Assembly: GCA_021800795.1 (NCBI GenBank)
Contig: JAJYYO010000003.1
Location: 62,001-126,000 of the forward strand
Direction of reading: 5' to 3'
Source: Pseudomonadota bacterium
Lineage (GTDB): Bacteria; Pseudomonadota; Gammaproteobacteria; Burkholderiales; Gallionellaceae
DNA length: 64,000 nt
Part shown: positions 46,108 through 56,333 of the stretch, in pieces
Numbering within the stretch: position 1 is the first letter of the stretch
Layout: every line of letters starts with the position of its first letter
Notes under the pieces: model-generated
What the model saw: the letters and a program-made list of their open reading frames with translations, nothing else
Databases searched by the model: none
Told to the model about the DNA's origin: nothing
Position numbers and translations under genes: made by a program

Positions 46108-46134
46108 TCCAGCCAATTTTCGACACCGTTGATT

Positions 46135-47049
46135 ATGCCTGAACTACCCGAAGTGGAAACCACGCGGCGCGGCCTGTCGCCTCATCTTGAGGGCGCAACC
46201 ATCAGCGGCATGGCGATCCGCTGCGCCCGCCTGCGCTGGCCCATCCCCGAAGATATGCCTTTGCCGGGCCAGACCGTTCTTGCCCTCACGCGCCGCGCCA
46301 AATATCTGCTGCTAAGTTGCGGCAACGGCCATGGCGAAATAAATGAAACTCGCCATGTCCGTTTCCCTCACCCGAACCCTCTCCCGGAAGGAGAGGGAAC
46401 AAACGAATTGCTACGCGACTTTCACATTTCTGGCACGCTGATCCTGCATCTGGGCATGTCAGGCAGCCTGCGCATTCTGCCCGCTGACACACCAGCGGAG
46501 AAACACGAGCATTTCGATCTGGTTCTGGATAACGGTCTCCTGATGCGCTTGCGCGATCCGCGCCGCTTCGGAGCCGTGCTCTGGCATGCAGGCGATATAA
46601 ACACGCACCCGCTGCTGGCCCGTCTGGGCCCGGAACCCCTGGAAGACGGTTTTGATGCCCGCTATCTCTACCGGGTCACGCGAGGCCGCAACGTTGCCGT
46701 CAAGCAATTCATCATGGACAGCCAGGTGGTGGTCGGCGTGGGCAACATCTACGCCAGCGAAGCGCTGTTCAGCGCCGGGATCAGTCCGCAACAGATAGCC
46801 GGAAAACTCAGTCTGGCACGCTGCATCAAGCTGGTTGCAGCCATCCGTGCAACCCTGAATGCCGCCATTATCGCAGGCGGCAGCACATTGCGCGATTTCG
46901 TCAACAGTTCGGGAAATCCAGGCTACTTCCAGCAACAGCATTGGGTCTATGGCCGGGCGGGTGCACCCTGTCGCCGCTGTGATGCGCCGATCAGACAAAT
47001 CAAGCAGGGGCAGCGGTCAAGTTTTTATTGCATACATTGCCAGAAATAG
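46135..47049 (+). CDS. mutM: Formamidopyrimidine-DNA glycosylase with repeat-derived insertion
   Basis: 304 residues, about 30 longer than usual. N-terminal PELPEVE gives the catalytic Pro2/Glu3 and fixes the start at 46135. [31 protein letters not shown] and the zinc finger (CRRCDAPI...CIHCQK) are intact. Residues about 64-98, between strands of the N-terminal domain, come from a repeat ([17 protein letters not shown]) and have no counterpart in the family. The enzyme excises oxidised purines such as 8-oxoG. Confidence 0.95.
46363..46420 (+). repeat. Composite palindromic repeat, short copy, in frame inside mutM
   Basis: CCCTCACCCGAACCCTCTCC, then CGGAAGGAGAGGG and ACAAACGAATTGCTACGCGA. It equals the outer arms of copy A in rsxC without the middle segment. 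Confidence 0.8.
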
Positions 47050-47246: not shown

Positions 47247-47978
47247 TCACACCCTGACATAATCCCAACCCAGCAGCAGGCGTTTGTTGATTTCCTCCAG
47301 CGCCGATGATGCTATCACGGTGTTGGGAAACAGCTTGACTATGACGCCTGCCTTACGCAATTTACTGATCGACTGGTTGCACGCAAGAAAGGTCAGGTTC
47401 GGGTATTTAGCCTTCATCGACCTTAATCGCGCGGCATAGGGCGATACATCGGTACGCAATAAATTTACCCCGCTGTCATTGGCGATGATCGCCACCTGCA
47501 ACGGACGGTGCGTACGCCTGTAAGTTTCCAGCAGGTTCTCGGTCTCATCCAGCGCCGTCTTGAGCCTGACCGGATTGGAATTACTGACCTGAACGATGAT
47601 CTTGTCCGGTTCCGAGACAACCACACTGCCCTGTATAGTCTGTAGCAGACGCACCATTTTCGTGCCGCTTTTTGAATCCGCTCCGCCGGCAATCACCCAA
47701 CCGGATGCGCCGCCCGCCAGCAACAGAAGCAGGCAGGCCGCCAGCGATTGCATGCGCCGGAAATAGGAAGGCTGTTTTTTGGCGAACGACCCGGAACGGA
47801 CCGGCAACTGATGATACGCATGCCGCACCTTTTCCTTCAGGTCGCGCAACTCGCACACCTGCTCCTTAAGCGCCCCGTCATGTCCCAGCCTCTCGAACAA
47901 TTCACTTTTTTCGTCCGAATCCAGCTCGTTATCGACGAAGGAATTCAGATATTCAATCGAGATATTTTGATCGTTCAT
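47247..47978 (-). CDS. Membrane anti-sigma factor with periplasmic DsrE-like domain
   Basis: 243 residues. Residues 1-75 form a charged cytosolic part like anti-sigma N-termini (EYLNSFVDNELDSDEKSELF). One membrane span lies at about 79-98. The periplasmic part (128-243) has the DsrE pattern: LQVAIIANDSGVNLL, NLTFLACNQS with Cys200, and the ending GWDYVRV. The same pattern recurs in the secreted protein encoded at 48744. It starts within the sigma stop (TGATG) behind AGGAGGG, so the pair is co-translated. No zinc-finger HxxxCxxC is seen. Confidence 0.8.
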   Translation of the reverse strand: MNDQNISIEYLNSFVDNELDSDEKSELFERLGHDGALKEQVCELRDLKEKVRHAYHQLPVRSGSFAKKQPSYFRRMQSLAACLLLLLAGGASGWVIAGGADSKSGTKMVRLLQTIQGSVVVSEPDKIIVQVSNSNPVRLKTALDETENLLETYRRTHRPLQVAIIANDSGVNLLRTDVSPYAARLRSMKAKYPNLTFLACNQSISKLRKAGVIVKLFPNTVIASSALEEINKRLLLGWDYVRV

Positions 47979-48556
47979 CACACAACCCTCCTGATCGGAC
48001 TGACGTTGGCAGGCTGCGTTGGCGCAAGTTCCTTCAACAAGGTTTTCAACGCCTGACGTGCCCTGCACAAGCGACTCATGACCGTTCCGATAGGAATAGC
48101 CAGCACGCTCGCCACTTCCGTATATGAAAATTCTTCGAGATCCACCAGCATCAGCACCTGGCGTTGACCGACAGGCAGCCTGGCAACCGCATCCCGCACG
48201 CAGGAAACAATTTGCGACTGTTCATGCTCATGTTCCGGTGTAATGACATTCACACAGCCGCATTCTCCGAGTTTTTCGATATCGTCGAATTCGTCTATAT
48301 CCTCCATCTCCCTGTGCCTGCGAAAATGGTCGCGCCAGCAGTTAGCCAGAATACTGAACAGCCAGCCATTAAACAGCGCCGGGTCTCGCAACTGGTTGGC
48401 ATTTTTAAACGCCTTGGCCAGCGTATCCTGTACCAGATCATCGGCAAGCGCCGCGTTGTGACTCCAGGAAAAAGCCATCCTGTACAACCTGGGCCGGATT
48501 TGCTCCAGTTGTTCCTGGAAACTGTCTGTGCGGCAGAAAAGCGAGAGAATTTTCAT
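47978..48556 (-). CDS. ECF-type RNA polymerase sigma factor
   Basis: 192 residues: sigma region 2 (about 15-80: RLYRMAFSWSHNAALADDLVQDTLAKAF and GWLFSILANCWRDHFR) and region 4 (about 125-175: LPVGQRQVLMLVDLEEFSYTEVASVL, GTVMSRLCRARQAL). It is followed by its anti-sigma, with one-base overlap. The GGAATA-N16-CGTCTT motif upstream suggests self-activation. Confidence 0.93.
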   Translation of the reverse strand: MKILSLFCRTDSFQEQLEQIRPRLYRMAFSWSHNAALADDLVQDTLAKAFKNANQLRDPALFNGWLFSILANCWRDHFRRHREMEDIDEFDDIEKLGECGCVNVITPEHEHEQSQIVSCVRDAVARLPVGQRQVLMLVDLEEFSYTEVASVLAIPIGTVMSRLCRARQALKTLLKELAPTQPANVSPIRRVV

Positions 48557-48600
48557 TATTAGGTTTCACCAAAAGATCGGAACAAATTGCCGCTCACTGT

Positions 48601-48628
48601 AAGACGCCGCAACAGGTAGAAATATTCC
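48601..48628 (-). promoter_or_regulatory. ECF-type promoter of the sigma/anti-sigma operon
   Basis: On the minus strand: GGAATA (48623-48628), 16 bases, CGTCTT (48601-48606), about 45 bases before the sigma start. Same hexamers and spacing as the divergent promoter at 48661-48688. Confidence 0.65.
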
Positions 48629-48660
48629 ATGCACCCGCACATCTTACAGAGAAACTCAAG

Positions 48661-48688
48661 GGAATAAAATTCATTCTGCACGCGTCTT
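48661..48688 (+). promoter_or_regulatory. ECF-type promoter of the secreted DsrE-like gene
   Basis: GGAATA (48661-48666), 16 bases, CGTCTT (48683-48688). The ATG at 48744 lies 55 bases downstream. Identity of both hexamers and the spacer length with the sigma promoter is unlikely by chance. Confidence 0.65.
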
Positions 48689-48743
48689 CCTCAGTAGCAC
48701 CCTGCAACGATGTAAATTCTACAATTCGAGGAGAAATCAAGCA

Positions 48744-49181
48744 ATGAAACACAGTCTTCAACTCAGCATTCTTGCTGCCGTGCTTGCCCTGCCTGCTGCA
48801 TCATTTTGCGCAACACCCGCCACGCAAACGGCGGCGGCACATGAACATGTGGTTTTTCAGGTGAGCGATGCGGCTCCCGGCAAGTGGAATCTGGCGCTCA
48901 ACAATGCAAAAAATGTGCAGGATGCCCTTGGCAAAGACAATGTAGACGTGGAAATCGTCGCTTACGGCCCCGGCATCGACATGCTCAAACTCGAATCCGA
49001 AGTCGGCGACCGGGTAGACAAGGCAATAGCTGAAGGCGTAAATATTGTCGCATGCCAAACCACCATGAAAAGCCAGAAACTGACCAAGGACGACATGCTG
49101 TCATCCGCCGGTTACGTTCCGGGCGGCGTGGTCGAACTGATGAAACGACAAAAAGAAGGCTGGGCCTATATCCGCCCCTGA
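48744..49181 (+). CDS. Secreted DsrE-family protein
   Basis: 145 residues. Signal peptide (about 1-22, ending SFCATP). The mature part follows a DsrE fold: HVVFQVSDAAPGKWNLALNNA, VDVEIVAYGPGIDML, VNIVACQTTM with Cys104, and the ending GWAYIRP. It parallels the periplasmic domain of the anti-sigma on the other strand. DsrE relatives carry sulfur on this Cys. A ribosome site GAGGAG lies upstream. A shared terminator follows. Confidence 0.87.
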   Translation: MKHSLQLSILAAVLALPAASFCATPATQTAAAHEHVVFQVSDAAPGKWNLALNNAKNVQDALGKDNVDVEIVAYGPGIDMLKLESEVGDRVDKAIAEGVNIVACQTTMKSQKLTKDDMLSSAGYVPGGVVELMKRQKEGWAYIRP

Positions 49182-49259: not shown

Positions 49260-50669
49260 TCACCAACGGTATGTCATCTGTGCACTTAACACGTTGCCCG
49301 TCGCATCCAGCACATTCATGGCATTGTTGAGTGCAATCGATGCGGGACCCGCAGCCGCAGTGCCGGGATTGACCACAGAAGCCGTGCGATAGGCGTAATT
49401 CACCGAGAAACGCAATCCCGGAGCGTAGAAATATTGCCCGCCTATCGTCCAGGTATTGAGCCTGCGTTCATCAGGCAACGAGTTCGTCATCTTGTCGTAG
49501 GAATCGAAGCGCAGATCGACCTCTAATTTCTCGGTGAATTTCCATCCCGCATCAAGATAATAGCCGCTTGCCTTGTTGGTGGATTCCACGGCCATCAGCT
49601 GTACCGGCACAAAGCCTCCGATTACCGAGTTGAATGCCGGATTCGGCCCCATATAAATCATGCCGCTACCCTGTATGTACTCGGTGCCCAGGCGCAGCGG
49701 CCCATGCAAGTATTTGAGTCCCACACCCTGCCGCAGACGGTCGTAATTGACGCCATTAAAATAGCGCTTGCCGTCCTGATGCCAGATATAAGCCGTGACA
49801 TCTTCACGCTTGGGCCCTGTACCCTCACCAAACAAATAGGAAGTCTGCAACCTAACGGTCACATCGTGATTGCCGGGATTATTTGCCGTATTGAAATTGA
49901 GACCATCGCCCTGGCTGACCATCACCGCGTAATTGTATTCCATCCTGTCTTTTCTGAACCAGTCGTAGACTTCGACGCCGGTGTCGCGGAAAGCGCCCAC
50001 CGAGCCGGCCAGTGTCCCCGCCTGATTTTTAGCGCCGTTCATGTTGATGCCTGCTGCAGGCGCCAATGCAGAAGCGGGCACGGCATAAGGGGTGACAAAA
50101 CGCTCATTGAGCAGGCCGTCGGTGACGTTGGTGAAGTTGATGTAATCCATCGCATATTCGCCCAGCATGGCTTCTTCACCGATCGGCAGACGACCCAAAC
50201 CCAGACGTATGCGCGCGCCGGAGATATAGTTCAAGGACACCGTGGCATCGGTCATCACACCCATTCTTTTGTTGTAGACACCGTTCACCGAGCCATTCTC
50301 GGTAATGGCATTATTGCCGAGCTCAGCCAACAGAAAGTAGTTGATTTTTTCGTCAGTTCCCGGCATGACCCCGCGCAAACCCGGACGAAATCGGAATATC
50401 TGCCCCTGATCTTTACTGGTCAGATCGGGCCCTACCAGATTGAGAACCGGTATTTGTCCGTTATAAGCTCGCGCGCCGGGAGCGCCGGTAAGTCCGCTGG
50501 CTGCACCGCCCAGATTGTGCTGGTATTGCGGCTGTATAAACCCCCAGAATTTATATTCCGGCGCGCCGGGTACTTCATAGTTCTGCATTTGAAACCAGTT
50601 GGCGGCTAAAGAAGCAGGTGCATGTCCGAAAGCGGCAAACATGGCAACCGCTAGTGCTGTTTTTTTCAT
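49260..50669 (-). CDS. Outer-membrane porin
   Basis: 469 residues. Signal peptide (MKKTALAVAMFAAFGHAPAS, cleavage near SLA-AN), then alternating beta strands rich in Tyr/Gly and a final strand ending TYRW, with aromatic residue close to the C-terminus as in Bam substrates. It resembles phosphate-selective or general porins of betaproteobacteria. It converges with the DsrE-like gene and diverges from the phosphoesterase at 50986, so phosphate-linked uptake is possible but not shown. Confidence 0.83.
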   Translation of the reverse strand: MKKTALAVAMFAAFGHAPASLAANWFQMQNYEVPGAPEYKFWGFIQPQYQHNLGGAASGLTGAPGARAYNGQIPVLNLVGPDLTSKDQGQIFRFRPGLRGVMPGTDEKINYFLLAELGNNAITENGSVNGVYNKRMGVMTDATVSLNYISGARIRLGLGRLPIGEEAMLGEYAMDYINFTNVTDGLLNERFVTPYAVPASALAPAAGINMNGAKNQAGTLAGSVGAFRDTGVEVYDWFRKDRMEYNYAVMVSQGDGLNFNTANNPGNHDVTVRLQTSYLFGEGTGPKREDVTAYIWHQDGKRYFNGVNYDRLRQGVGLKYLHGPLRLGTEYIQGSGMIYMGPNPAFNSVIGGFVPVQLMAVESTNKASGYYLDAGWKFTEKLEVDLRFDSYDKMTNSLPDERRLNTWTIGGQYFYAPGLRFSVNYAYRTASVVNPGTAAAGPASIALNNAMNVLDATGNVLSAQMTYRW

Positions 50670-50985
50670 GTAACTCCCCTAGATTTTAAGTATATTTGAA
50701 TTATTAACTTCGGTGAAACAGCCCGGCATCCTCATGGCTTGCCGCCCTGAAAATGCCGGTATTACTCATGAAAACAGTTACATGCATAGATTTTTTACAG
50801 AAAAACCCTATACTCCCGCGCAACAATTTCTTACAATTTGCCGCGCAATTGTAAGGTAGACGAGCGGACAGCCTGAGTTATTCCATCATTCCGGGATTTT
50901 TATTGAAATGCGTTTTGTGAATTTCCGGCTCATCTGAATTAAGTCTGGCAATGTTACAATTCGCAGAGACACTACAGACGACACC
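50670..50985. other. Divergent regulatory gap between porin and phosphoesterase
   Basis: 316 bases, moderately AT-rich, with TTACAATT motifs at about 50830-50860 and 50954. No gene and no GGAATA-N16-CGTCTT copy is seen here. Presumably holds both promoters. Confidence 0.4.
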
Positions 50986-52888: not shown

Positions 52889-53427
52889 ACTGCCAACCCT
52901 ATCAATTGATAATGCACCTGCCCGGCCCTGCCCGACTTTATTACCCGCCAGGGTGCCGGCGCTTCAATTTCAGCGCCGGACTCCAGATAGACAACCCCAC
53001 CATCATTCAAATGCGCAGGCAATATGTCCAGCAATTTCGGCAAATAATCGCCCTGAAAAGGCGGGTCCAGAAAGATCACATCGAAGCGCTGCGCATTGCG
53101 GCGGATGAATTCCAGCCCGTCCTGATGGCGCAACAGGACCTGGCTGCATGCCAATTTGCCGGCATTATCCTGCAAGGCGCGAAATACCGACAGGCTTTTC
53201 TCCACCATCAACACACGCTCCGCCCCGCGGGACGCCGCTTCAAAACCCAGCGCGCCGCTGCCGGCGAACAGATCCAGACAGCTGCGTCCATACAGTGTTT
53301 GCCCCAGCCAGTTGAACAGCGTCTCGCGCACCCTGTCCGGCGTCGGACGCAATCCTTCCGCATCGGGGAAAGCGATGATGCGGCTGCGCAGTTCGCCGCC
53401 GCCTATCCTGACTTTATTTATTTTCAG
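52885..53427 (-). CDS. rsmD: 16S rRNA (guanine(966)-N(2))-methyltransferase RsmD
   Basis: 180 residues if started at the CTG of 53425-53427. SAM-binding [18 protein letters not shown] and the catalytic DPPF in [14 protein letters not shown] are clear. The conserved N-terminal part [20 protein letters not shown] is encoded upstream of the first standard start (TTG 53352). No ATG, GTG or TTG precedes it in frame, so a CTG or ATA start overlapping the peptidase gene is likely. Function assignment is firm, start is uncertain. Confidence 0.85.
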
Positions 53428-54979
53428 CCCCGGCAGATTTTGACTCAGGCACAGGTGCGCCGACGATCACCGTGGCCATTTGCTCAGGATGAATGTGACG
53501 GGCAAAGGCGTCCTTGATCTGTGCTGCGGTAACCCGTTCCACACGCCCGGTGAAGTCGTCCAGATAAGTCAGCGGCAAATCGTAGAAGCCGATCAAGCTC
53601 AGGTATTCCAGTATCTTGCGGTTGCTGTCGATGCGCAACGGAAACCCGCCGATGATATTCTGCTTGGCGGCCTGCAACTCCTTTTCTGTCGGGCCATCTG
53701 CAACAAATTTCGCAACCGTTTTACGCACCAACGCCAACGCCTCATCGGCCTGCTCCTTCTTGGTTTGCAGACCGATCTGGAAGACGCCCGGCAGCTTGAG
53801 CGGCATGAAATAGCTGTACACACTGTACGCGAGGCCGCGTTTTTCGCGCACCTCATTCATCAGTCGCGACACGAATCCGCCGCCACCCAGTATGTAATTG
53901 CCCACATACAGCGTGAAATAGTCAGGATCGGTGCGCGACATGCCGGGCTGACCTATCAGAATATGGCTCTGCGTGGCCGGATGAACGATGCGTTGTTCGG
54001 ATGCCTGGATACGCATCGTCACGGCGGGTATCTCGTCCTGCACGGTCGATACCGGCAGTTCGCCGGTCAGCTGTTGTGCAATCGCTTCGGCCTCCTTGCG
54101 CGTCACATCGCCCATGATCGCCACCACCGCACGGTTAGCAACGTAGCGGGCGCGATAAAAATCCTGCAAATCCTGATCATTGATCGCCGTCACACCGGCA
54201 ACATCACCGGACACGGGCAATGCATAGGGATGCTGTCCGTATACCGCTTTCTGAAAGGCGCGACCCGCGATGAATTCCGGCTTGGTCTCATTTTCTTTCA
54301 AGGCGGCAATCACGCGCGTTTTTTCCCGAGCGAGAATCGCATCCGGAAACAGCGGGTGTTGCAGCACTTTCGCCATGATGTTCAACGCCCGGTCGCGTTC
54401 CGCCGCATGGCTCAGGGTACGCAAGGTTACGCTCGCCATATCCTGATCGATGCCGCCGCCGAGCTGCGCGCCGATATCCGCCAGACTGCTGGAAATGACA
54501 TCCTCGTTCATTCCTTCCACGCCCAGATCAAGCAGCTCATGCGTCATGCTGGCCAGGCCTGATTTTTTGTCGTAACTGCTGCCCGCAGGCAACGTCACCG
54601 CCACGTCCAGCATCGGGATATCGTGATCTTCCACAAACAGCACTTTCGCGCCGCTGGCGCTCTGCCAGTGCTGAATATTGGGAGTTGCAAACGCGATACC
54701 GGCGGCGCAACACAATGCAGTGGCTACAATTATTTTAATCGACCCAACAAACAACGCACGCGTCTTTCCCGCCCCCGACAAACCCATTCGAGGGCAGGCT
54801 ACGGCGGGAAAACGAGGCCAAAGGCCGAAGTTTCGAGGAACGACCATCCAGTTGATTATAAAGCCCCCGCGTAGCGGGACAACGATAGGGTTGTGTCCGC
54901 TACGCGGAATATTATTCTTGCTGGATTCCCGCTTGCGCGGGAATGACGGTATTAGTGAATGATTTGTTTTAACGGACAT
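53414..54979 (-). CDS. M16 peptidase family protein, non-catalytic partner, with repeat-coded N-terminal insertion
   Basis: 521 residues. The M16 core begins ATPNIQHWQSASGAKVLFVED; the zinc motif is reduced to MTHELLDLG (no HxxEH), so it is the regulatory partner of the active enzyme next door. The ATG at 54979 has an AGGAG ribosome site and overlaps the upstream gene by 11 bases. Residues about 8-75 are encoded by two interspersed repeats, which push the hydrophobic signal (SIKIIVATALCCAAGIAFA) inside; export may start from an internal ATG such as 54787. Confidence 0.85.
   Translation of the reverse strand: MSVKTNHSLIPSFPRKRESSKNNIPRSGHNPIVVPLRGGFIINWMVVPRNFGLWPRFPAVACPRMGLSGAGKTRALFVGSIKIIVATALCCAAGIAFATPNIQHWQSASGAKVLFVEDHDIPMLDVAVTLPAGSSYDKKSGLASMTHELLDLGVEGMNEDVISSSLADIGAQLGGGIDQDMASVTLRTLSHAAERDRALNIMAKVLQHPLFPDAILAREKTRVIAALKENETKPEFIAGRAFQKAVYGQHPYALPVSGDVAGVTAINDQDLQDFYRARYVANRAVVAIMGDVTRKEAEAIAQQLTGELPVSTVQDEIPAVTMRIQASEQRIVHPATQSHILIGQPGMSRTDPDYFTLYVGNYILGGGGFVSRLMNEVREKRGLAYSVYSYFMPLKLPGVFQIGLQTKKEQADEALALVRKTVAKFVADGPTEKELQAAKQNIIGGFPLRIDSNRKILEYLSLIGFYDLPLTYLDDFTGRVERVTAAQIKDAFARHIHPEQMATVIVGAPVPESKSAGAENK
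54750..54948 (-). repeat. Two interspersed repeats inside the M16 gene
   Basis: One unit is a GTCATTCCCGCGCAAGCGGG arm (54922-54948) with a GTAGCGG palindrome beside it; the second unit (about 54760-54840) encodes FGLWPRFPAVACPRMGLSGA, a translation seen for an interspersed repeat in related bacteria (from memory). Confidence 0.65.
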
Positions 54980-56333
54980 GAGTGGAATCTCCTGATTGAT
55001 GCCTGGGCTTACCTGACAAGGGTTGCGGATCGAGCACGGCAACGGTCAGGTTATCGTCCTGCAATAACATCTGCGCAACCTCCTGCACCTGCGCTGCGGT
55101 CACCGCCTGCAATTTGTCCAGCATCAACGGAATGGCCTTTTGGCCCAGCCCTATGCTCTCCATCTGGCCTATCTGCATCGCCTGATAGAACACCGAGTCG
55201 AGCTTGTACACTTCGCCTGCCATCACCTGCGCCTTGACGCGCGTAAGCTCCTGCTCGCTCACGCCGTTCTTTACAATCAGCGCAATTTCTTCACGCAGCG
55301 CCGCCTCAGTATCACTCACCGTCTTGCCCTCGCTGGGCGTCGCTTCCAGCGTAAACAGGGCAGGGCCGCGGGATGCCGAGTCATATCCTGCGCCCACATC
55401 GCTGGCAATCTGCTGCTCGCGCACCAGGTGTTTGTTTAAGCGTGCCGAGTCATTGCCGCTCAGCACGCCGGCGAGCATTTCCAGCGCATAAGGTTGCCAG
55501 TCACGCAAAGGATCAACGAGGTTGGGTGCGTGATAACTCATCACCAGCAGCGGCAGTTCGGCGGGGGCTTTCACCACCATGCGCTTGATGCCGCTCTGCG
55601 CGGGTTCGGTGTAATGTCTGCGTGCCGGCTCCACGTGTTTGGGGATGCCGCCATAGTAGCGTTGTGCCAGCGCGAACACATCGGCAGCTTTGACATCGCC
55701 CGCAATGACCAGCGTCGCGTTATTGGGGGCGTACCATTTTTTATACCACGCTCTGGCATCGTTCACGGTGAGCTGTTCAAGATCGCTCATCCAGCCGATC
55801 ACCGGATGCCGATAGGGATGTTCCTCGTAAACCACCGCGTTCATTTTTTCCTGCAACAGTGCGTGCGCATCGTCGTCGGTACGCATGCGACGCTCTTCCA
55901 TCACCACTTTAATCTCTTTGGAAAATTCAGTCTCCGAGAGATTGAGGTTGTGCATCCGGTCGGACTCCAGCTGCATCGCCAGCCCCAGCTTCGATGCGTG
56001 CAACTGCTGAAAATACGCGGTGTAATCGTTGCTGGTGAACGCATTCTCGCGCCCGCCTGCGGCGGCAATCAGCCTTGAGAATTCACCTGCCGGAACGCTT
56101 TTGGTGCCCTTGAACATCATGTGCTCCAGCACATGCGCGACGCCCGTCTTGCCGGTGCGTTCATCCATGCTGCCGGCCTTGTACCAGATCTGCTGCACCA
56201 CCACAGGCGCGCGGTGGTCTTCCTTGACGACGACTTTCAGACCGTTCGCCAGCGTGCGTTCAAATACTTCGGCGCTGGCCGCTTGTTGCACCCCGAACAC
56301 CAGCAGTGCCATACAAAACACAAAATTGCGCAT
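54969..56333 (-). CDS. M16 zinc peptidase, catalytic partner
   Basis: 454 residues with signal peptide (1-21, ending AASA). HVLEHMMFKGT gives the inverted zinc motif H67xxE70H71, with the third ligand Glu in VVMEERRMRTD. Periplasmic processing peptidase, likely a heterodimer with the following gene. ATG 56333; reading further upstream enters the divergent ftsY promoter. Confidence 0.93.
   Translation of the reverse strand: MRNFVFCMALLVFGVQQAASAEVFERTLANGLKVVVKEDHRAPVVVQQIWYKAGSMDERTGKTGVAHVLEHMMFKGTKSVPAGEFSRLIAAAGGRENAFTSNDYTAYFQQLHASKLGLAMQLESDRMHNLNLSETEFSKEIKVVMEERRMRTDDDAHALLQEKMNAVVYEEHPYRHPVIGWMSDLEQLTVNDARAWYKKWYAPNNATLVIAGDVKAADVFALAQRYYGGIPKHVEPARRHYTEPAQSGIKRMVVKAPAELPLLVMSYHAPNLVDPLRDWQPYALEMLAGVLSGNDSARLNKHLVREQQIASDVGAGYDSASRGPALFTLEATPSEGKTVSDTEAALREEIALIVKNGVSEQELTRVKAQVMAGEVYKLDSVFYQAMQIGQMESIGLGQKAIPLMLDKLQAVTAAQVQEVAQMLLQDDNLTVAVLDPQPLSGKPRHQSGDSTHVR

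Follow-up and report, generated by a model that had tools for sequence, protein, structure and literature searches.

We describe a locus whose ECF sigma/anti-sigma pair probably acts as a switch for the oxidation of sulfur in the periplasm (Sox), with a DsrE domain tethered to the membrane as its sensor. Its promoter-like sites and its linkage to sox point to genes of thiosulfate oxidation as the probable targets. That a DsrE domain forms the outer part of this ECF anti-sigma factor is well supported. Control of sulfur genes by ECF sigma factors is already known from the ECF26 group (PMC3511301, PMC6527743; these and the other papers given by PMC number are cited from parts of their text). What is new here is a predicted ECF-type promoter before the sigma and DsrE genes of the module and, in the present locus, before the porin gene.

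The locus and its genes

The genes lie in a window of 64,000 nucleotides, i.e., the whole stretch of DNA that was analyzed. The sigma, anti-sigma and divergent secreted DsrE genes are at the positions that an earlier note on this DNA had given for them:

47978..48556, (-) strand: ECF sigma factor of 192 aa, with Sigma70_r2 and Sigma70_r4_2 (Pfam E 4.5e-13 and 7.4e-16)
47247..47978, (-) strand: anti-sigma factor (P0001) of 243 aa, with an ATG start that overlaps the sigma stop
47379..47381, (-) strand: codon of Cys200 in the anti-sigma sensor domain, counted from 47978
48744..49181, (+) strand: secreted DsrE-family protein (P0002) of 145 aa, with a signal-like N-terminus (PF02635, E 1.7e-8)
49260..50669, (-) strand: Porin_O_P-family protein of 469 aa (PF07396, 24.8 bits for a cut-off of 20.9)

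The secreted DsrE gene is divergent from the sigma/anti-sigma pair and convergent with the porin gene. The pair has the features of an ECF sigma factor with a membrane anti-sigma factor: regions 2 and 4 in the former, and an adjacent helical anti-sigma with one transmembrane segment. The best NCBIfam match of the sigma factor is PRK12511, with 109.3 bits, under the cut-off of 185. The structural model and the hydropathy profile of P0001 (peak of 2.1 at residue 79) indicate a three-helix cytoplasmic part at residues ~8-56, a transmembrane helix at ~77-98 and an outer DsrE domain at ~120-243. Among the 81 anti-sigma factors that we aligned, 63 have a clear hydrophobic peak (>1.6) within residues 50-120 and the rest are without one. 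The N-terminal part gave weak Pfam matches to zf-HC2 in 17 and matches to RseA_N in 6 of the 81 relatives, with neither found in P0001, and its likeness to RseA/MucA in the PDB profile search is weak (E 0.66-0.7).

Two other genes of the window, both named by eye, have unusual stretches. The mutM-like gene at 46129-47049 contains an in-frame stretch of 11 residues (~46365-46400) that looks like the insertion of a palindromic repeat; the repeat-type pattern that we guessed for it had no match in the window. The N-terminal part of an M16-type peptidase (ORF at 53414-55042) reads SFPRKRESS, a peptide that we take to derive often from another dispersed repeat.

The outer domain of the anti-sigma factor is homologous to the secreted DsrE protein

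The earlier note had seen a kinship between the sensor domain and the secreted protein in their strand pattern, and this kinship is borne out by sequence, profile and structure comparisons. BLASTP aligns the outer domain of P0001 with P0002 at 34.3 bits (E 3e-7). Their local alignment score is 77, and none of 5000 shuffles reached this value (26 +/- 4.4). Profile-profile comparison by hhalign, which that note had called for, matches residues 120-242 of the sensor with positions 31-146 of the DsrE profile at a probability of 99.7% (E 2.2e-25). The shuffles and the profile comparison argue against a chance resemblance, and the two domains are homologous. P0002 itself matches PF02635 at 35.1 bits (cut-off 22.7) and the structure 1l1s by sequence (phmmer E 1.9e-17). 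Pfam finds no DsrE in P0001 as a single sequence, and even at E <=0.1 it detects the domain in only 15 of the 81 anti-sigmas. That Pfam rarely sees the sensor domain may be why such proteins would escape annotation as DsrE.

Structure prediction of each protein, also proposed in that note, gave confident DsrE domains. In the AlphaFold2 model of the anti-sigma factor (whole-chain pLDDT 80.2, pTM 0.52) the DsrE domain is mostly at ~90-99, and the secreted protein reaches 93-99 over its domain. A Foldseek search with the anti-sigma model returned three matches with E <0.001: MTH1491 (1l1s) at the top (TMt 0.89, E 3.9e-8), ST0148 (2pd2, E 2.6e-6) and a designed cage built from a DsrE-like protein. 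DsrEFH (2hy5) is a weak match (rank 8, E 0.033). The PDB profile searches agree with the assignment of the sensor to DsrE. The placement of the Cys typical of the DsrE fold, at the end of a strand and before a helix, is found in P0001 by the model and in P0002 by the model and the sequence match to 1l1s.

We also considered that the domain might have been captured repeatedly by anti-sigma factors. This was rejected, since in a midpoint-rooted tree the 81 sensors group together and are split from 60 free DsrE proteins; the two branches of this split print values of 0.998 and 0.34, so the root and its support are uncertain.

A single invariant cysteine in both proteins

The earlier note had pointed to one Cys in the same place of both domains and to a closing GW-x-Y-(V/I)-R. 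The first turned out to be strictly conserved. C200 is present in 81/81 aligned anti-sigmas, in each of which it is the sole Cys past residue 100, and C104 in 60/60 aligned free DsrE proteins, where it is the sole Cys past residue 30. C200 of P0001 and C104 of P0002 align with each other, and in both AlphaFold2 models this Cys terminates a strand immediately before a helix. The alignment of free DsrE comprises P0002 and 59 of 71 DsrE genes; the 12 omitted ones, which are divergent, tailed or contain unknown bases (L094), all show the Cys by eye, and the one-Cys count covers the 60 aligned. The closing motif is largely conserved in the wider form G-(W/Y)-x-Y-x-(R/K). On the anti-sigma side, the transmembrane segment has three nearly invariant residues at its end (G89, G93 and W94).

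Linkage and distribution of the module

A scan of our genome collection confirmed 170 relatives of the anti-sigma factor, and the locus counts given here cover the best 80 of these 170. The sigma gene lies directly upstream of the anti-sigma gene in 80/80 loci, and a DsrE gene is present in 60/80. It is divergent and lies within 1.5 kb of the sigma gene in 46 of the 77 loci whose upstream stretch spans at least 1 kb; 6 other loci have it directly downstream. In 20/80 loci, the stretch covered has no DsrE gene. The loci also carry Porin_O_P (30/80), at least two sox genes (24/80) or a Sulf_transp (TsuA-like) gene (9/80), whereas 11/80 have neither DsrE, porin nor sox; two of these 11 end just upstream of the sigma gene. 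The DsrE, porin, sox and transporter families were called with models built for this analysis. One representative each of SoxX, SoxY, SoxZ, SoxA and SoxB clears its NCBIfam cut-off; the representative of the transporter clears Pfam Sulf_transp and falls below the NCBIfam TsuA cut-off. Conserved linkage of the three genes in other genomes was what the earlier note had made its reading depend on. This linkage recurs across genera, and the frequencies of the sigma and DsrE genes rule out a local accident.

Among the best 80 relatives, the genera include Gallionella, Sideroxydans, Sulfuricella (which carries the module in L090 and L098), Sulfurimicrobium, Thiobacillus and Sulfuritalea, as well as Hydrogenophilus, Thiohalobacter, Thiogranum, Acidiferrobacter, Pandoraea and Cupriavidus, in addition to less exactly named MAGs. 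The system is thus found beyond Betaproteobacteria, in gammaproteobacterial lineages of sulfur oxidizers. Its distribution within the genus of our genome is patchy: a full-length match to the anti-sigma factor was found in 6 of 37 genomes including our own and not in the other 31, some genomes being incomplete. In a sample of 398 genomes of the phylum, both parts of the protein were spanned, among the matches listed, only in three genomes of the same order (G000, G627 and G056). No match to P0001 was found in 72,556 plasmid records, which rules out carriage by the plasmids covered.

The anti-sigma factor co-occurs with soxB. Among 369 genomes of the class, soxB (E <=1e-100) is present in 63 of the 65 genomes with the anti-sigma factor (best E <=1e-30) vs 87 of the 304 others; this count leaves out G113 (6.3e-27), and G319 is a partial match. 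The Fisher test gives 1.5e-26, a value uncorrected for kinship that overstates independence because the genomes are related.

A DsrE match outside the anti-sigma factor was found in each of the 12 genomes with the anti-sigma factor that were checked, although G182 has a distant one only (best E 2.3e-15). In genomes of other classes, 11 loci (L221-L229, L231 and L232; L230 and L233-L239 were left out) have a free, signal-bearing DsrE with the same Cys motif and no sigma or anti-sigma factor of the present kind within stretches of 3.4 kb. Further, 30 ECF loci from 15 genomes of other classes (probably Alphaproteobacteria) gave no DsrE match; 13 of these loci have a recognizable anti-sigma factor, and in L280 the promoter form of our module recurs.

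Three loci (L120, L138 and L153) carry two sigma/anti-sigma-DsrE modules each, suggesting duplicated switches. The DsrE protein at L102:6831-7262 has, by eye, a lipobox-like LQGC and may be a lipoprotein and not a free periplasmic protein. An apparent metallo-beta-lactamase partner was rejected, since its "MBL" cluster is contaminated by ORFs antisense to sigma; it was therefore ignored in all counts.

Promoter-like sites

The window contains exactly three GGAAT-N16/17-CGTC sites, which precede the sigma, DsrE and porin genes and were found by pattern:

48603..48628, (-) strand: predicted autoregulatory promoter of the sigma gene, GGAAT-N17-CGTC
48661..48686, (+) strand: predicted promoter of the secreted DsrE gene, GGAATAA-N15-CGTC
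50859..50884, (-) strand: predicted promoter of the porin gene, GGAATAA-N15-CGTC

Like sites occur within 250 bp before 67/80 sigma genes (0.05 expected from shuffles) and 43/81 DsrE genes (0.20 expected). For comparison, the count for the other ORFs in these loci is 5/710. The set of 80 sigma genes consists of the copies preceded by at least 100 bp of sequence, L083, L087 and L105 being dropped and the second copies in L120, L138 and L153 added. The base that follows GGAAT is outside the search pattern; among the distinct sigma sites that have the common spacing it is an A in 62/62, and among 39 DsrE sites in 97%. The -35 GGAAT and -10 CGTC correspond to the ECF26 consensus for sulfite-oxidation promoters (PMC6527743). 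The sigma factor of the module may read these sites.

The same pattern was found within 250 bp before 4/24 soxY and 1/25 soxB, and not before porins (0/30), soxX (0/6) or solute-binding genes (0/4) of the loci. Many of the porin, sox and solute-binding genes without a site sit behind DsrE or the anti-sigma gene on the same strand. Specifically, the sox genes are downstream of the anti-sigma gene and on its strand in 16 of the 25 loci with a sox gene; among the other nine, in which sox is on the opposite strand, four have a promoter site of their own and five have none.

In our whole genome, GGAAT-N16/17-CGTC is found 45 times and its reversed pattern 27 times. Only four of the 45 sites have the GGAATAA form; they precede DsrE, the porin, a second DsrE-family gene (contig C11) and soxY on contig C39, which carries soxYZ and soxB. 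Since four sites are about what is expected from base counts (estimate ~3), the evidence is in their position. The sox genes are tied to the module by linkage or promoter, and in our own genome solely by the soxY site on another contig. That contig also has, in addition to soxYZ and soxB, a run of a multihaem cytochrome, a solute-binding protein and another signal-bearing DsrE (L186, 1337-5039). Across seven other genomes, GGAATAA sites number 25, against 6 for the reversed control. Among the 25 sites, 11 precede a sigma gene (5), DsrE (2), a porin, soxXYZ, soxB or a TsuA-like gene (1 each), 6 precede genes for two PF03601 transporters and for cytochrome c', DsbH-like, HAD and LysM proteins, and 8 are without a nameable target.

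Proposed mechanism and alternative explanations

In the mechanism that we propose, the anti-sigma factor would confine sigma to the membrane and present its own DsrE domain to the periplasm. There, Cys200 would react with, or be loaded by, reduced sulfur, forming a thiosulfonate or persulfide from thiosulfate, tetrathionate or polysulfide. We suggest this chemistry because DsrE3A takes thiosulfate on its Cys and passes it on; with tetrathionate it forms a Cys-S-thiosulfonate, and the thiosulfate is then passed on (PMC4175335). The secreted DsrE shares the fold and has the equivalent Cys104, and it may join the exchange as a carrier, a partner subunit or a buffer. The earlier note had likewise seen a plausible interplay, in which the soluble protein would compete with the anti-sigma factor, modify it or report to it. 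Loading of Cys200, either direct or via the free DsrE, would free the sigma factor, which would transcribe its own operon, DsrE, the porin gene and sox genes. We infer the signaling role of Cys200, its ligand, the contact between DsrE and sensor, and the mode of release. A more specific version is put forward tentatively, as a possibility short of a probable one: the free and the tethered DsrE might form a hetero-oligomeric sulfur relay in the periplasm, in which Cys104 would collect sulfur and give it to Cys200, this sulfur being the signal that frees the sigma factor for Sox oxidation and the porin.

The main rival is that the secreted DsrE is an output only. It would then be a periplasmic sulfur carrier, the anti-sigma factor alone would sense a small sulfur compound or a carrier such as SoxYZ, and the two domains would never meet. 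We regard this as a serious possibility, if a somewhat doubtful one. The DsrE gene has its own sigma-type promoter and is absent from the stretch covered in 20 of the best 80 loci, so the protein may be an output and not an input. The 11 loci of other classes with a free, signal-bearing DsrE and no such sigma/anti-sigma pair in 3.4 kb, and the clustering of the sensors apart from the free DsrE in the tree, fit the same explanation. Against it, the gene is divergent and close to sigma in most of the loci with room for it, and a DsrE match, exported or not, was seen beyond the anti-sigma factor in each of the 12 genomes examined, if only a distant one in G182. Besides, an output can double as a feedback partner.

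Returning to a sensor that reads reduced sulfur, its signal could instead be sulfite, as proposed for RpoE4/RpoE1 of ECF26, with the system serving mainly in protection from sulfite or thiol stress and the sox linkage arising because Sox metabolism makes sulfite. RpoE1 and RpoE4 do respond to sulfite (PMC3511301) and the promoter consensus is shared with ECF26 (PMC6527743), but the linked soxXYZAB, Sulf_transp and porin genes speak of uptake and oxidation and not of detoxification, sulfite dehydrogenase being outside the families searched. Nor did the 30 ECF loci of other classes, known as ECF and not as ECF26, give a DsrE match. We consider this explanation unlikely. It is very improbable that the DsrE tail has become a structural relic, a mere handle by which the anti-sigma factor is offered to regulated proteolysis, and that its ancestry is uninformative on sulfur. 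Membrane anti-sigma factors commonly release sigma by being proteolyzed, and the near invariance of three residues (G89, G93 and W94) where the membrane segment ends would suit this; yet the sensors have exactly one Cys, which is invariant, and both the neighborhood and the set of promoter sites point to sulfur genes.

Relation to known systems

The closest systems, judged by their published description, are the ECF26 pairs RpoE4-SMc04050 and RpoE1-SMc01420 of Sinorhizobium meliloti and SigE of Starkeya novella, in which an ECF sigma factor is likewise found beside sulfur-oxidation genes, with GGAAT/CGTC promoters and a response to sulfur compounds (PMC3511301, PMC6527743). They differ in that they govern sulfite-oxidizing enzymes. 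How their anti-sigma factors sense sulfite is stated to be unknown in the discussion of PMC6527743. The term DsrE is absent from the available text of that paper, and in that of PMC3511301 it appears only as an unrelated match.

MTH1491, ST0148 and DsrEFH share with the present domains the fold and the position of the Cys. What sets the present pair apart from the DsrE/DsrF family is that one copy serves as the outer part of an anti-sigma factor in the membrane and the other is secreted. The DsrE3A-TusA pair of Metallosphaera cuprina resembles the proposed exchange, in that a DsrE protein takes thiosulfate on its Cys and hands it to a partner, but it is a metabolic carrier pair and the available text does not describe it as gene regulation (PMC4175335). 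In the lysozyme receptor RsiV-SigV the anti-sigma factor likewise has an outer domain as a dedicated receptor (PMC4183432); its signal is different, and the likeness drawn here is in the role of the outer domain.

We found no description of a DsrE-tailed anti-sigma factor in the open literature searched, in line with the earlier note, which knew of no DsrE domain described as the outside sensor of an ECF system. The term DsrE occurs 0 times in the available text of PMC7406223 and PMC8103513, and the genome described in PMC2147049 has ECF pairs as well as a sox cluster, with no link between the two stated in the available text.

Implications

Little is known of how sulfur oxidizers perceive, outside the cell interior, the sulfur on which they feed, and the module offers a candidate. 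This candidate sensor is widespread in sulfur oxidizers and combines one invariant Cys with a partner gene in many loci and a defined promoter. It would extend the DsrE proteins from sulfur trafficking into signaling. If the relay is true, many sulfur oxidizers would share a new means of measuring, outside the cytoplasm, the sulfur that feeds them.
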